Shown one piece after another: positions 18,676-26,862 of a stretch of DNA of 64,000 nt (the stretch's first letter is position 1; every line of letters begins with the position of its first letter). The notes beneath the pieces were generated by a model. It had not been told where the DNA came from. It ran no database searches and saw only the letters and a list, made by a program, of their open reading frames with translations. The translations under genes and the position numbers were made by a program. The stretch is from positions 62,001 through 126,000 of the forward strand of contig JAIPBD010000012.1 in NCBI GenBank assembly GCA_021739765.1, given 5' to 3'. Source of the stretch: Melioribacteraceae bacterium (lineage in GTDB: Bacteria > Bacteroidota > Ignavibacteria > Ignavibacteriales > Melioribacteraceae).

Positions 18676-19287
18676 CTACCAAAAATTCCCAATGCTTTTA
18701 CCCTCACCGTCATCTTTTGTGTCATCGAAGCCCGGTCGTTTTAATTCACCGGTTTTTGTTCTCCTTTGATTTGATGAAGCAGCCGTTACCCTTTCAGATT
18801 CTTCCTTCTCAGAATCTTCTTTAATCGAAGGATCATCTTTTTTGTTAAGGTAGATTACATTAGTTGGTGGAGTGCTTAATTTTTGTTCTTCAGTTGATTC
18901 CGGAACAACTTCGCCGATAGAAAACTTCCCTGACATCTCAACATTATTTTCACACATTAAATTTTGAGCGCTTATATCACCCAAAGCTACCGAATGTTCT
19001 TTTAATATTAAGTTCTCCGACGCAAAAATATTACCGTTTACTTTACCGTAAACAAGGATATTACTCCCTTTCAAATCACCTGTAATAGTGGCTGATTTGC
19101 CAATTATAATTTCAGATTTTGATGTTATGTTTCCTTTAACATAACCGTGCACAACTATTCCGCTTTCGTCTGTGATATTCCCTTCAAAGCGTGTAGATTC
19201 TGACAGTAAGTTATAGTTATCAGAATCTAATTGTATATCGTATCCATGAGAAGAAGCTTGATTCCGCTTCTTGTAAGAAAGTTTCAA
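18676..19287 (-). CDS. Bactofilin-family cytoskeletal protein
   Basis: A 203-residue protein. Residues about 30-125 form the bactofilin beta-helix, seen as six-residue-periodic short strands (FEGNITDESGIVVHGYV, KGNITSKSEIIIG, ATITGDLKGSNILVYGKV, NGNIFASENLILKEHS). A charged, low-complexity C-terminal tail of about 75 residues follows. Bactofilins polymerise without nucleotide and scaffold enzymes or pili. It lies 47 bases downstream of the actin-like gene on the same strand, so two filament-forming proteins share one transcription unit. Confidence 0.92.
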   Translation of the reverse strand: MKLSYKKRNQASSHGYDIQLDSDNYNLLSESTRFEGNITDESGIVVHGYVKGNITSKSEIIIGKSATITGDLKGSNILVYGKVNGNIFASENLILKEHSVALGDISAQNLMCENNVEMSGKFSIGEVVPESTEEQKLSTPPTNVIYLNKKDDPSIKEDSEKEESERVTAASSNQRRTKTGELKRPGFDDTKDDGEGKSIGNFW

Positions 19288-19334: not shown

Positions 19335-20354
19335 TTACATCATACCTAAATCATTGCTTGTTACAACAACTGTTTGAGCATTTCCAAGATCAACGCCAAC
19401 TGCGGTGTTCCCGGTTCCAGCCTTTTTCTTTGATTGCGAACAATATCCTTTTGCAACCGCTTCATGAGGATTTTGGAAGATTTCTACTTTTAAGAAAGAA
19501 CCAAATTCTTCCTTAAAAAGATCAACAAGATCTTGATAAAATGCTCCACCGCCGGCAATTACTAACTTTTCGGTGTTTTCGAAATCAGCATCTTTCCAAG
19601 TGTTCCTTATTGTAGGCGAAATTAACTCGTTATAGTATTTGGTCAGTGACTTTTTCCGCATTCCGGTTAAGTCAACTTTTTTTCTATTAAGGAATACAAA
19701 ACCTTTTTGGAAATTAAAATCGTATTGATGGTCATTTTTCATACCTAAATAATATTTTCGTTTTAACTCTGCCATTGAATCATGAATTGCGTAATGCAAA
19801 CCTTGAGCGCTTATCACCGTTCTGTCTACAATACCGGTTTCATTTGTTAAACATGCTTCAAAAGTACCATACCCTAAATTTGCTACGAATACATTATCTG
19901 AAGTTTGCATCTCAGCTCGTACGGCAGATCCACAACCAATAATTTCGGGAGTAACGTCGACACTATCAACTTCCACAGTTACAGTTTTCGAAATGCTTTT
20001 GCCGATTGAAAATTGATCATAAGAAATTTCTTGTTTACCCGATAAAAATTGAATCGCTTCTTCACGATTGATCATATAAGTAGAATATGGAAAGCCAAGT
20101 GTTAAATTTATCGGCCCTTCGGTCTTTGCCGAAGCTAATAGTAGTGCGGCTTTCATCAGAACTTGAAAATCTGTATCTGACGGATAGCTGTTTATAATTT
20201 TATGAGGGGAAACGCCTTCGGTTAAGGCGAGTTGACCAACGACATATTTTTCACCATTGTGGTGAATTCTTAAACCGGAAATTAGGTCCCTAAAAATATT
20301 TTTTAGCTCTTGATCATGTTTTTCAAGAATACTTGGAAAAATTTGAACATTCAT
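19335..20354 (-). CDS. Actin-like ATPase (ParM/StbA-like) with apparently permuted order
   Basis: A 339-residue protein of the ParM-like actin superfamily. LTLGFPYSTY (85-94) is typical of the family, ANLGYGTFEA (158-167) is at the phosphate-2 position with Asn where Asp is usual, and VIAGGGAFYQDL (265-276) is the adenosine motif. The family's phosphate-1 motif is missing at the N-terminus, where the chain starts at MNVQIFPSI. A clear phosphate-1 match, GVDLGNAQTVVV, lies at 320-331 after a Lys/Gly linker. An in-frame TAA six bases before the ATG excludes a longer N-terminus. It is probably a filament-forming ATPase working with the bactofilin next to it. Confidence 0.85.
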   Translation of the reverse strand: MNVQIFPSILEKHDQELKNIFRDLISGLRIHHNGEKYVVGQLALTEGVSPHKIINSYPSDTDFQVLMKAALLLASAKTEGPINLTLGFPYSTYMINREEAIQFLSGKQEISYDQFSIGKSISKTVTVEVDSVDVTPEIIGCGSAVRAEMQTSDNVFVANLGYGTFEACLTNETGIVDRTVISAQGLHYAIHDSMAELKRKYYLGMKNDHQYDFNFQKGFVFLNRKKVDLTGMRKKSLTKYYNELISPTIRNTWKDADFENTEKLVIAGGGAFYQDLVDLFKEEFGSFLKVEIFQNPHEAVAKGYCSQSKKKAGTGNTAVGVDLGNAQTVVVTSNDLGMM

Positions 20355-23278: not shown

Positions 23279-23665
23279 ATGGGTCAGCAACAGTTATTAT
23301 TAATCGTACTTGGTGTAATCATTGTTGGAATTTCGGTGGTTGTAGGTATTAGTGTATTCAGTGCAAGCAGTACCTCGGCAAACCGTGATGCGGTAGTAAG
23401 TGATCTTACAACACTCGCAAATATGGCACAACAATATTATAGAAAACCAACTGCTATGGGCGGTGGAGGAAATTCATTCTCCAGTTGGAGTATCCCGGCC
23501 TCACTAGCGGCAACAGGAAACGGAAGTTATGCGGCAACAGTTACTGCCAGTCAAGTTACTTTGGTAGGAACAGGAAACCAGCTTGGTGATGACGAAACCA
23601 ATAACGTAAGCGTTACTATGTACGTCGGTTCAAACGCAATTGATTCTACAATAGTTGCCAACTAA
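23279..23665 (+). CDS. Type IV pilin-like major subunit with two-residue leader
   Basis: A 128-residue protein starting MG then QQQLLLIVLGVIIVGISVV, a hydrophobic helix placed as in type IV pilins but with no basic leader and no Glu at position 5. The globular part (about 30-128) is rich in Ser, Thr, Gly and Ala, as expected for a secreted fibre subunit (YYRKPTAMGGGG, TMYVGSNAID). A strong ribosome binding site precedes it, a possible sigma-54 promoter lies upstream and a strong terminator follows, so it is probably made in excess over the machinery genes downstream. The major-pilin role is inferred from context. Confidence 0.8.
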   Translation: MGQQQLLLIVLGVIIVGISVVVGISVFSASSTSANRDAVVSDLTTLANMAQQYYRKPTAMGGGGNSFSSWSIPASLAATGNGSYAATVTASQVTLVGTGNQLGDDETNNVSVTMYVGSNAIDSTIVAN

Positions 23666-23678
23666 AGGCTTAAAAGGG

Positions 23679-23716
23679 AAAAAAGCCGGGGACGATCGTT
23701 CGCTCCGGCTTTTTTT
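23679..23716 (+). terminator. Strong intrinsic terminator after the pilin gene
   Basis: AAAAAAGCCGG pairs with CCGGCTTTTTT around a 15-base loop and ends in seven T residues. It lies between the pilin and the platform-protein gene, so readthrough would set the ratio of pilin to machinery. Confidence 0.88.
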
Positions 23717-23722
23717 ATAAAA

Positions 23723-25066
23723 ATGATAGAACTAAGATTTCAAGCAATAAAGCAATCGGGCCAAGCAATTACCGGAACAATTAATGTCCCAAGCTATTCC
23801 GAAGGCAAAAAGAAAATTAAACTTATCGCCGAAAAGTATCTTTTATCGGTACGCAAAGTCGAAAGAAAATACACTTACCGTTACAAAGTAACCCGCGGAA
23901 ACGAAAAGCCTATTACCGGTGAACAAAAGGCCTTCAGTAAAGAAGAAGTTAATATTGCTTTAAGAAAGCTTGGATTTAAAATAATATCAGTAAATAAACT
24001 TTTCTTTGAATTAAATATAAAACCTCCGCAGCATGAAATTCTTTCATTCGTAAAAATCTCAGCAGAATTACTGGAGCAAAAATTATCGTTTGGGGAAATA
24101 TTAAATCTGTTGATGAGTGATACAAAGAATAAAACTTTAAAGGAAGTATTAAAACAGATCAACAGTGAATTGAAACAAGGTGGTGACAGTGAAAAAGTCT
24201 TCTTAAAATATCAAAAGATATTTGGGAAGTTTACCGCTTATATGCTCGGGCTCGCATCTAAAAGCGGAAACATGGTTGAAATTTATAAAGCAACCGCCAA
24301 GTTTTTAGAACGCAGGCAACAATTTCGAAAAGATCTTAAAAGCGCGCTTATTACTCCATTTGTTACACTATTTATAATGTTTCTCGCAGTGCTTTTTTAT
24401 ATCAGTTATATCTTTCCGGAGACAGCTCAATTGTTCGTAAAACTAGGCGTTAAATTACCTCCCATGACCGATGTGACTCTAAAGATGAGCTATTTCATTT
24501 CGGATTATATAGTTTTTATTCTTGCCGGAATGTTTGCCCCCGTAGCCGCTGTTCTTTTTTATTTCTCTACCGAAAAGGGAAAATTGTTTCGCGATAAAAT
24601 GATATTAAGAATTCCTGTAGTCGGTTCTTTAATTCATAAAACATTAATTGAAGTTTTTTGCAGGGTGTTTTATACAATTTATTCCGGTTCATCCAACAGC
24701 ATCGAACCGATCGCGATAGCGGCTGAATCGACAGGTAATAAATATTTCGAAAATCAAATTAAGACTATAAGTATTCCCGCAATGCTGCAGAAAGGAAGTG
24801 GATTAACTGAATCATTTAAGGCTTCCGGAGTATTTACAGATACCGCGCTTGCACGATTTCATTCCGGGGAAGAGACCGGAACAATTAAGAATACTTTAAA
24901 ACAAGTGGCGAATTATTACGAGAGCGAAACCGTTTTCAGATTAAAAAATATTATTGAAATTATTCAAGTAACAATTTCAATGATCATCATGGTTGTTATG
25001 GTTGCGCTAACCTTGGTTTCAGCTGAAACCGCAACTATCTCACCAAATTCACCAATGAGCAAATAG
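23723..25066 (+). CDS. GspF/PilC-family inner-membrane platform protein
   Basis: A 447-residue protein. An N-terminal soluble region (about 1-95) resembles the linker seen in some GspF proteins. Two type II secretion F domains follow (about 100-230 and 305-440), with three membrane segments (LITPFVTLFIMFLAVLFYIS, YIVFILAGMFAPVAAVLFYF, VTISMIIMVVMVALTLVSA). The family anchors the assembly ATPase to the membrane and helps extrude pilin. It begins seven bases after the terminator and is five bases from the ATPase gene. Confidence 0.9.
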   Translation: MIELRFQAIKQSGQAITGTINVPSYSEGKKKIKLIAEKYLLSVRKVERKYTYRYKVTRGNEKPITGEQKAFSKEEVNIALRKLGFKIISVNKLFFELNIKPPQHEILSFVKISAELLEQKLSFGEILNLLMSDTKNKTLKEVLKQINSELKQGGDSEKVFLKYQKIFGKFTAYMLGLASKSGNMVEIYKATAKFLERRQQFRKDLKSALITPFVTLFIMFLAVLFYISYIFPETAQLFVKLGVKLPPMTDVTLKMSYFISDYIVFILAGMFAPVAAVLFYFSTEKGKLFRDKMILRIPVVGSLIHKTLIEVFCRVFYTIYSGSSNSIEPIAIAAESTGNKYFENQIKTISIPAMLQKGSGLTESFKASGVFTDTALARFHSGEETGTIKNTLKQVANYYESETVFRLKNIIEIIQVTISMIIMVVMVALTLVSAETATISPNSPMSK

Positions 25067-25071
25067 TTAAA

Positions 25072-26862
25072 ATGGAAGATCAATTACAAAATATTGAAAA
25101 GATCGGTTATCTACTTTTGAAAAAAGGCATCGTTGATACTGAAATATTAACAAAGGTTCTTTCAATCAAAAACAGCTCAGTGGAAGCCTCCCATAAAAAT
25201 CTGGCGCAAATTTTAGTAGAAGATCTAAAGTTCGACTATGATCTAATCTATTCTGAAATCGCCCTATTATATGGATTCAGAGAAGTTAAAGTTGAACACA
25301 CAAAAAGTTTTGAAAAGCGAATCGAAAATATCAATAAACTTTTAGGTCAATATGATGAAAAAGGAAAGTCATTTTTAAGTGAGAATAATACGCTTCCATT
25401 TGGGACTGATACCGGCACATTAAATAGAGTAATATTTGCCTCGATTGATCCAACAAATAAAAACCTTGCTCGAATTCCCTACTTGCTTGGAGTAAATAAT
25501 TTTGAAATACAATTTATCAGAAAAATATACTTCGAAAAAATTAATGAAACTTTGTTCCCAAAAGAAAATGAATACTTAAAACTAATCGAAAATTCCCAAG
25601 AAGATCTTTCCACCGAAATCGATGAAATTCAAATTGATGAACAAGAACTTGACGAGCAAATTAATAGCAGCGCGTTAATAAATCTTGTGGAAGCATCTTT
25701 AATTGAGGGCGTTAGGCAAGGTGCAAGTGATATCCATATTGTTCCAAAATCCGGCAATGTTACAGAAATAAATTTTCGAATCGACGGTAAACTTAGTGTT
25801 TGGACAACTCAACGAAATACTTACCCTGAAGCGGTTACTTCAGTTGTGAAAGACCGGGCACGCGGATTGGACCGTTTCGAACGTGAAGCGGCTCAAGATG
25901 GATTTATTCAGCGGGAAATTGATAATAATATTATTCGGTTTAGAGTCTCCGTTTTACCGCTTGCCGGAGCAGAATTAAAAAATAAATTTGAAACAATTGT
26001 AATTAGAATTCTTGACGATCGAAAAGTTATTAAAGACTTAAGCAAACTTGGTCTTTCCGGCTATGCGTTAACATCCTTTCAGAAATCGATCAATAAACCT
26101 CAGGGGATGGTAATATTAACCGGACCAACCGGAAGCGGTAAAAGTACAACCCTTATCGCAGCGTTATACCAAGTAATCGATCCAACAAAAAACGTTCTTA
26201 CGGTAGAAGATCCGGTGGAATATGTAATTGAAGGCGCTCGGCAGTTAAAGATCGGTCATAAAATGAACTTTGATCAAGCAATTCGGGCAATTTTAAGACA
26301 CGATCCCGACATCGTTCTCGTTGGAGAAATGAGAGATAAAGAGACAGCAGAAACAGCGATAAAATTGGCAAATACCGGTCACCTCACTTTTTCAACTTTG
26401 CATACTAATGATGCGCCAAGCGCGATTGCACGTCTTTATAAAATGGGAATCGAACCATTCCTTATCGCATACGCAATTAATATTGTTATCGCACAAAGGT
26501 TGATCCGGCGACTTTGTGAAAAGTGTAAAAAGAAGGTCGGTGCTGAAACACTTGAACAATTAAGTGCCTTAGGAATTAATTTCACACCCGAAGAAATTGA
26601 AAACATTTACGACGCGGTTGGTTGCGAGCACTGCAATGATACCGGATACAGAGGAAGATTAGCAATTCATGAAGCTCTTTATTTTACCAAAGAAATAAGA
26701 GAAGCAATAGTAAAATCATCAAGTGATATTGATGAAAATATTCTAAGGACACTTTCCCGAAAAAACGGAAGTTTATCGCTGAGAGATAGCGGAATGCAAA
26801 AAGTATTACTCGGCTATACATCTATACATGAAGTTTTGTCCACCACAACCGATGATTCATAA
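25072..26862 (+). CDS. GspE/PilB-family assembly ATPase
   Basis: A 596-residue hexameric ATPase. The N-terminal GspE_N/MshEN-type domain (about 1-160) precedes the N2D domain (ASDIHIVPKSG, REAAQDG) and the ATPase core with Walker A GPTGSGKST (about 351-359), Asp box VEDPVEY, Walker B ILRHDPDIVLVGEMRD and His box STLHTND. A zinc-binding Cys tetrad (CEKCKK, then CEHC) is present as in extension ATPases. It powers pilus or pseudopilus growth. Its stop overlaps the next start by one base (TAATG). Confidence 0.93.
   Translation: MEDQLQNIEKIGYLLLKKGIVDTEILTKVLSIKNSSVEASHKNLAQILVEDLKFDYDLIYSEIALLYGFREVKVEHTKSFEKRIENINKLLGQYDEKGKSFLSENNTLPFGTDTGTLNRVIFASIDPTNKNLARIPYLLGVNNFEIQFIRKIYFEKINETLFPKENEYLKLIENSQEDLSTEIDEIQIDEQELDEQINSSALINLVEASLIEGVRQGASDIHIVPKSGNVTEINFRIDGKLSVWTTQRNTYPEAVTSVVKDRARGLDRFEREAAQDGFIQREIDNNIIRFRVSVLPLAGAELKNKFETIVIRILDDRKVIKDLSKLGLSGYALTSFQKSINKPQGMVILTGPTGSGKSTTLIAALYQVIDPTKNVLTVEDPVEYVIEGARQLKIGHKMNFDQAIRAILRHDPDIVLVGEMRDKETAETAIKLANTGHLTFSTLHTNDAPSAIARLYKMGIEPFLIAYAINIVIAQRLIRRLCEKCKKKVGAETLEQLSALGINFTPEEIENIYDAVGCEHCNDTGYRGRLAIHEALYFTKEIREAIVKSSSDIDENILRTLSRKNGSLSLRDSGMQKVLLGYTSIHEVLSTTTDDS

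Follow-up and report, generated by a model that had tools for sequence, protein, structure and literature searches.

The closest described relatives of the protein analysed here are plasmid proteins of the ParM/StbA, ALP and PRTRC system protein D types (PF17989, phrog_691), in which a phosphate-1 hairpin stands at the N-terminus and is followed by an ASKHA/actin core; ALP_N is the N-terminal domain of plasmid actin-like proteins. A chromosomal descendant of plasmid partition systems has been described in filamentous cyanobacteria, where the ParM-derived FcmB is found in organisms that also possess MreB, controls cell shape, has FcmC as its partner and is needed for rod shape in Nostoc (PMC12645912). 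Bactofilins are in turn known to cooperate with the M23 peptidase LmdC in cell shape (PMC10945521). Circular permutation within fold groups in general was treated in a kinase survey of 2005, the accessible text of which gives no actin-like case (PMC1079889).

The window, by which we mean the whole stretch of 64,000 nucleotides analysed, encodes a protein whose core runs in the same order as that of the plasmid relatives, whereas the phosphate-1 hairpin is found at the C-terminus. The family to which it belongs differs from these relatives further in the loss of the phosphate-2 Asp, in a Gln to Glu replacement, in the loss of the Lys after the phosphate-1 Thr and in having a bactofilin gene as neighbour. 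The features of the locus are as follows.

19335..20354, minus strand: coding sequence of the permuted actin-like protein (339 aa), assigned from the ORF, ALP_N, phrog_691 and 43 full-length homologues, its own product included.
20331..20339, minus strand: FPS, residues 6-8, where the body begins (beta-3 of canonical ParM-like proteins), placed by alignment.
19944..19946, minus strand: E137, at the position of the canonical Gln; Glu in 26 of 26 family members, Gln in 10 of 10 canonical plasmid proteins.
19863..19880, minus strand: phosphate-2 motif NLGYGT, residues 159-164, with Asn in place of Asp; Ser, Asn or Gly in 26 of 26 members, Asp in 10 of 10 canonical proteins.
19545..19553, minus strand: adenosine motif GGG, residues 268-270, invariant in 26 of 26 members.
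19398..19430, minus strand: linker KKKAGTGNTAV, residues 309-319, after the last helix; variable among the 26.
19362..19397, minus strand: moved phosphate-1 hairpin GVDLGNAQTVVV, residues 320-331, with five invariant residues; restores ALP_N positions 1-18 when placed in front.
18676..19287, minus strand: bactofilin gene (203 aa, PF04519), 47 bp downstream of the permuted actin.
18679..18693, minus strand: C-terminal IGNFW of the bactofilin, the terminal-aromatic tail; 28 of 28 bactofilins in this position end in Trp or Phe.

A first-pass annotation of this DNA had described the core motifs as lying in the normal order, the N-terminal phosphate-1 hairpin as absent with a match at residues 320-331, and a missed N-terminus as ruled out, and these descriptions hold. 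All the motifs that it quoted are located in the ORF, which lies on the minus strand, a point that it leaves out (GFPYSTY at residues 87-93, ANLGYGTFEA at 158-167, IAGGGAFYQDL at 266-276 and NPHEAVAKGY at 295-304), and the ATG is preceded by an in-frame TAA with a single serine codon between the two, so that no N-terminus has been missed in frame. The FPS at residues 6-8 is aligned with the FPS or FPT found after the phosphate-1 hairpin of several plasmid proteins with the canonical order, and P7 and S8 are invariant in all 26 aligned homologues. Pfam ALP_N matches the protein with 58.0 bits (cut-off 26.3, E 1.6e-15) over profile positions 19-146, and the best full-length profile is phrog_691, a 'partition protein' of the PHROGs collection, whose profiles carry no curated cut-off (93.0 bits, E 3.9e-26). 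These matches place the product, as an actin-fold protein, in the ParM/ALP lineage, with its chain beginning at the predicted beta-3. Membership of MreB was considered and rejected (MreB_Mbl, 19.9 bits against a cut-off of 27, E 3.8e-4, residues 263-308 only), as was membership of FcmB (NF052678, 20.6 bits against a cut-off of 300, E 1.7e-4), and no match to the protein was returned by a viral scan, a phage collection or a single-sequence search of the PDB. Elsewhere in the window (23279-26862), pilin-like, GspF-like and GspE-like ORFs, named by reading, stand in a row and suggest a type II secretion or type IV pilus cluster.

Like FcmB, the permuted actin is a chromosomal actin of partition descent in MreB-bearing organisms, but FcmB has about 66 more residues before the matched stretch (NF052678 positions 93-214 correspond to residues 27-160 of the permuted actin), its partner is FcmC whereas the neighbour here is a bactofilin, and the accessible part of its description mentions no permutation (PMC12645912). 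MreB shares the actin fold with the permuted actin and resembles it, below the profile cut-off, in the adenosine region, but its element order is canonical; a separate canonical MreB is present in all 13 carrier genomes searched.

Five genome samples, which overlap, were searched. Of the 39 near genomes 5 carry a relative; the counts for the other samples, each of which includes fragments or weak matches, are 24 of 395 for the phylum-wide sample, 7 of 246 for the class to which the window belongs, 31 of 244 for another class and 6 of 395 for a third class. The genome of the window itself contributes to the first three figures. Those with names come from one Ignavibacteriaceae, three Melioribacteraceae and one 'Bacteroidetes' MAG. 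One weak match, L036, was dropped, being by reading an FtsA-like ORF beside an FtsZ-like ORF. Homologues with the same element order, which the first-pass annotation had put forward as a check on its reading, make up the entire full-length set: the phosphate-1 motif is C-terminal in 26 of 26 distinct proteins and in 17 of 17 later ones, hence 43 of 43, with identical proteins counted once and G355, G439, G574 (L145, its start lost at a contig end), G646 and G725 left aside as fragments or weak matches. ALP_N matches 23 of the 26 at E<=0.001. All 26 share G320, D322, G324, N325 and T328 without exception, whereas the linker before these residues and the sequence after them vary; a conserved order with five fixed residues amid variable flanks is therefore not a product of chance. 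A homologue with an additional normal N-terminal phosphate-1 motif, which had been named as evidence that would speak against a permutation, was not encountered among the 43 full-length proteins, and the open stretches upstream of the first set (1-47 aa) contain no such motif. One member, L152:2866-4257, carries at its N-terminus about 80 further residues of open frame, which include MGLMGWIRHTFREE close to their beginning; this stretch could be an amphipathic membrane anchor, or no more than open frame ahead of the usual start. In a phylogenetic tree the 43 permuted proteins lie on one side of a 100/99 branch with a long stem, so by this tree the permuted proteins are one clade; long branches among the canonical rows leave the order of the outgroups unsure.

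The argument for a circular permutation begins with co-linearity. Positions 26-324 of the 329 in phrog_691 correspond to residues 4-310 of the 339-aa protein, which therefore contains the whole ParM-like body minus the first 25 or so positions, that is, the hairpin. Putting the hairpin in front in silico raised the ALP_N score from 58.0 to 69.1 bits and extended the matched span from 19-146 to 1-146; a second family member rose from 36.2 to 41.1 bits. Against phrog_691 the same operation gave 100.7 instead of 93.0 bits, with the match extended to 6-324, compared with 94.7 bits for one shuffled hairpin, and L030 rose from 77.1 to 90.1 bits. Against a profile built from ten plasmid ParM-like proteins, with which the native order scores 50-81 bits, un-permuting added 12 bits, and in 24 of 26 members none of 200 shuffled hairpins scored as high as the real one; L005 and L019 did not pass this test. 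When the chain was rotated in steps of four residues against this profile, the score peaked at the proposed joint, 7-11 residues before the phosphate-1 motif, in 25 of 26 members; for L019 the native order scored best. MreB profiles had no power in the rotation scan and were uninformative.

The family profile aligns with pCBH ParM (6ixw) over profile positions 4-280 and chain residues 27-324 (E 6e-6). With BiP (3iuc) the unrotated profile gives a split, permuted match, in which profile positions 126-178 and 248-310 correspond to chain residues 188-241 and 339-401 and positions 316-337 to residues 24-45; the split order is that expected of a permutation, and the hairpin piece, at 0.7 bits, is not significant alone. 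An un-permuted 11-member profile did not raise the matches to PDB chains over those of the native order. The point at which ALP_N begins to match also separates the groups: position 1-3 in nine of ten canonical plasmid proteins (the tenth from 49), and position 15-21 in all matches of the 395-genome phylum sample, at least 12 in number, a lower bound from which the window's own gene, found by another search, is missing. The first-pass reading of the protein as circularly permuted is thus supported at the sequence level by the co-linearity with phrog_691, the gains on un-permuting, the rotation scan and the fixed order within one clade.

The roles of the active-site residues are known from the actin literature. 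The phosphate-1 Asp is invariant in all 26 aligned members. The phosphate-2 Asp, present in 10 of 10 canonical plasmid relatives, is replaced throughout the family (Ser in 22, Asn in two, Gly in two), so that the Asn for Asp reported by the first pass in the window protein is one instance of a loss seen in 26 of 26. E137 is Glu in every member, where all ten canonical relatives have a Gln that we take to be catalytic, and the Lys after the phosphate-1 Thr is found in none of the 26 versus nine of ten canonical proteins. Given the lost phosphate-2 Asp and the invariant Glu for the canonical Gln, altered hydrolysis, as suggested by the first pass, is a reasonable expectation, and from the residues ATP binding is likely to be retained and hydrolysis to be changed.

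The pairing with a bactofilin goes beyond what the first-pass annotation observed. The gene 47 bp downstream encodes a bactofilin (PF04519, 78.7 bits, E 4.2e-22, residues 27-122) that is the probable operon partner of the permuted actin. Neighbours were counted at 43 loci, a set that differs from the 43 full-length proteins and comprises 25 loci of the phylum search (the G355 fragment and the FtsA-like match taken out) together with L143-L160, L145 included. A bactofilin follows the permuted actin at 28 of these, stands behind a TPR gene at three more and is not found nearby at 12. In the first set of 25 loci it follows on the same strand at 15, at a distance of about 1 kb in G157, stands behind the TPR gene at three and was not found at seven; the second set of 18 loci comprises 13 with a following bactofilin and five at which none was found (L146, L158-L160 and L145, a short contig piece counted among the loci without a bactofilin). 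The adjacency is kept across deep branches of the tree. At L061 and L062 (G051 and G072), which have no neighbouring bactofilin, a repeat-like protein of about 1,230 aa is encoded directly upstream on the same strand and a protein of about 1,170 aa directly downstream.

The bactofilins next to the permuted actin share a terminal aromatic residue. Trp is the last residue in 25 and Phe in three of the 28: all 15 in the first set end in Trp (12) or Phe (3), and all 13 in the second set end in Trp, the rule having been set down after this set was fetched and before it was examined. Apart from the last residue the tails are, by eye, unlike across lineages, and related loci are not independent in these counts, although the pattern spans several deep branches. 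None of the three TPR-separated bactofilins has an aromatic end; as 12 of 43 loci also have no bactofilin nearby, neither the neighbour nor the tail is obligatory. Among the other bactofilins of carrier genomes an aromatic end occurs in two of 34, one of 24 in the first-set genomes (a Phe, with no Trp) and one of 10 in nine second-set genomes (a Trp). The former, L079 (G038:C1:1760309-1760599), is a lone bactofilin that terminates in RQDF, while the one linked to the actin in that genome has Trp as its last residue; the latter, L173 (G632:C222:7109-7363), is a second bactofilin ending in HFW on another contig than the actin, and is the sole non-adjacent Trp end seen. As a base rate, nine of 225 long ORFs end in Trp, five of which are by reading the bactofilins themselves. 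In a class-wide sample no W, F or Y end was found in 69 distinct bactofilins among the matches listed, 67 of which come from genomes outside the 31 with a permuted-actin match among the matches listed. This sample favours high-scoring bactofilins (the best matches), with a further 40 picked for long frames or second copies; three run-off matches were dropped, and L190 and L198 were already part of the first lone set. The result ties the tail to the presence of the permuted actin, for a sample to which low-scoring paralogues do not belong.

We therefore propose the following explanation, to which, taken whole, we assign a probability of roughly 0.77. A chromosomal actin-like ATPase of the ParM/ALP lineage would have undergone one ancient circular permutation, in which, at the level of sequence, the chain was opened in the beta2-beta3 turn and the beta1-beta2 phosphate-1 hairpin came to lie at the C-terminus, joined to the former C-terminal helix through a short variable linker. 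Most likely the hairpin returns to its own chain, where it inserts into subdomain IA and so completes the ATP site. The protein probably retains ATP binding and filament formation, and its residues suggest that the chemistry of hydrolysis has changed. Permuted actin and bactofilin would act as a joint cytoskeletal module at the cell envelope, with a putative role in cell shape or wall growth; the terminal aromatic of the bactofilin may provide a peptide that docks onto the permuted actin or onto a partner of both.

Whether the docking partner is the actin itself is where the strongest competing account departs from this explanation. Three permuted actins, sister in the tree to a lineage with an adjacent Trp-tailed bactofilin, continue for about 90 residues after the hairpin and end in GMW or GTW.

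L158, 2722-4020: tailed permuted actin.
L159, 2032-3399: tailed permuted actin.
L160, 2725-4029: tailed permuted actin.

The fetched flanks of these three loci contain no bactofilin, and one bactofilin was found in each genome, away from the actin and ending in Ala. This looks like a transfer of the bactofilin-type Trp tail onto the actin. These loci would also fit a reading in which the Trp/Phe tail binds a third factor rather than the actin, with both cytoskeletal proteins as clients of that factor, and the W-tailed bactofilin of G632 on a contig apart from the actin and the F-ended one of G038 away from it fit such a factor as well. The absence of W, F or Y ends from all 69 class-wide bactofilins among the matches listed associates the tail with the presence of the actin and weighs against such a factor, and we regard a third factor as a genuine possibility, somewhat short of even odds.

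A less probable alternative is that the protein still serves plasmid or chromosome partition and that the bactofilin is an incidental neighbour. In favour of this, the best full-length profile is that of a partition protein, and the plasmid collection gave one weak match for each of two queries, a ParM/StbA and a PRTRC D protein. Bactofilins, moreover, can take part in DNA partition in some bacteria. Against it, no ParR-like small gene was recognised by eye in the printed flanks of 21 loci, the window included, and the bactofilin stays adjacent across deep branches. At the TPR-type Ignavibacteria loci L007-L009 an M23 peptidase gene lies directly upstream of the permuted actin (with a Pfam match for L007). 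The L007 cluster (L007:3074-8588) reads acyltransferase-like, glycosyltransferase-like, M23 peptidase, permuted actin, TPR, bactofilin and then ATP synthase-like genes, the outer names being by reading only; L008 and L009 are similar, and the glycosyltransferase-like gene refers to L007. An M23 peptidase and a TPR gene in the cluster at three loci would point towards wall growth or cell shape rather than to the partition of plasmids. The clustering resembles that of the bactofilin-LmdC modules, in the accessible description of which no permuted actin is mentioned (PMC10945521), and the shape role of FcmB indicates that a comparable switch of function has occurred in another lineage (PMC12645912). 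Continued service in partition thus appears unlikely to us, and a role of the permuted actin in cell shape or envelope growth would fit these neighbours.

It is similarly unlikely that the hairpin acts in trans, completing the ATP site of the neighbouring subunit in a strand-swapped filament. A variable linker precedes the hairpin and the sequence does not fix which subunit receives it. The N- and C-termini of canonical actin-fold proteins, however, lie close together in subdomain IA, so that closure in cis needs only the short linker seen, and we found no evidence for swapping. An elaborated version, which we consider quite improbable, is a hybrid cytoskeleton in which each subunit provides its hairpin in trans for the ATP site of the next, the filaments are coupled laterally to bactofilin filaments through the Trp/Phe docking peptide, and this peptide was passed onto the actin in one lineage. 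Finally, a degraded ParM that lost its hairpin by truncation or a wrong start, with the C-terminal GVDLGNAQT a chance or unrelated copy, would account for a protein that begins exactly past the hairpin and draws on a common motif type (GxDxGxxxT), but is strongly contradicted, to the point of being very hard to credit, by the in-frame stop one codon before the ATG, by the C-terminal position of the motif in every one of the 43 full-length members and its five residues that are fixed throughout the 26 aligned, and by un-permuting that beats all 200 shuffles in 24 of 26.

In the open-access literature, as covered by titles and the openings of abstracts, no permuted actin-like protein and no such bactofilin tail was recognisable. 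The permuted actin and its bactofilin, the two parts of the module proposed above, suggest an unstudied two-part cell skeleton. A natural and deeply conserved permutation, which puts the new chain ends at the beta2-beta3 turn, offers a direct test of what polymerisation and nucleotide gating need of chain topology. The link to the bactofilin, if true, would join an actin-family protein and a nucleotide-independent polymer as one genetic module through a simple docking motif.
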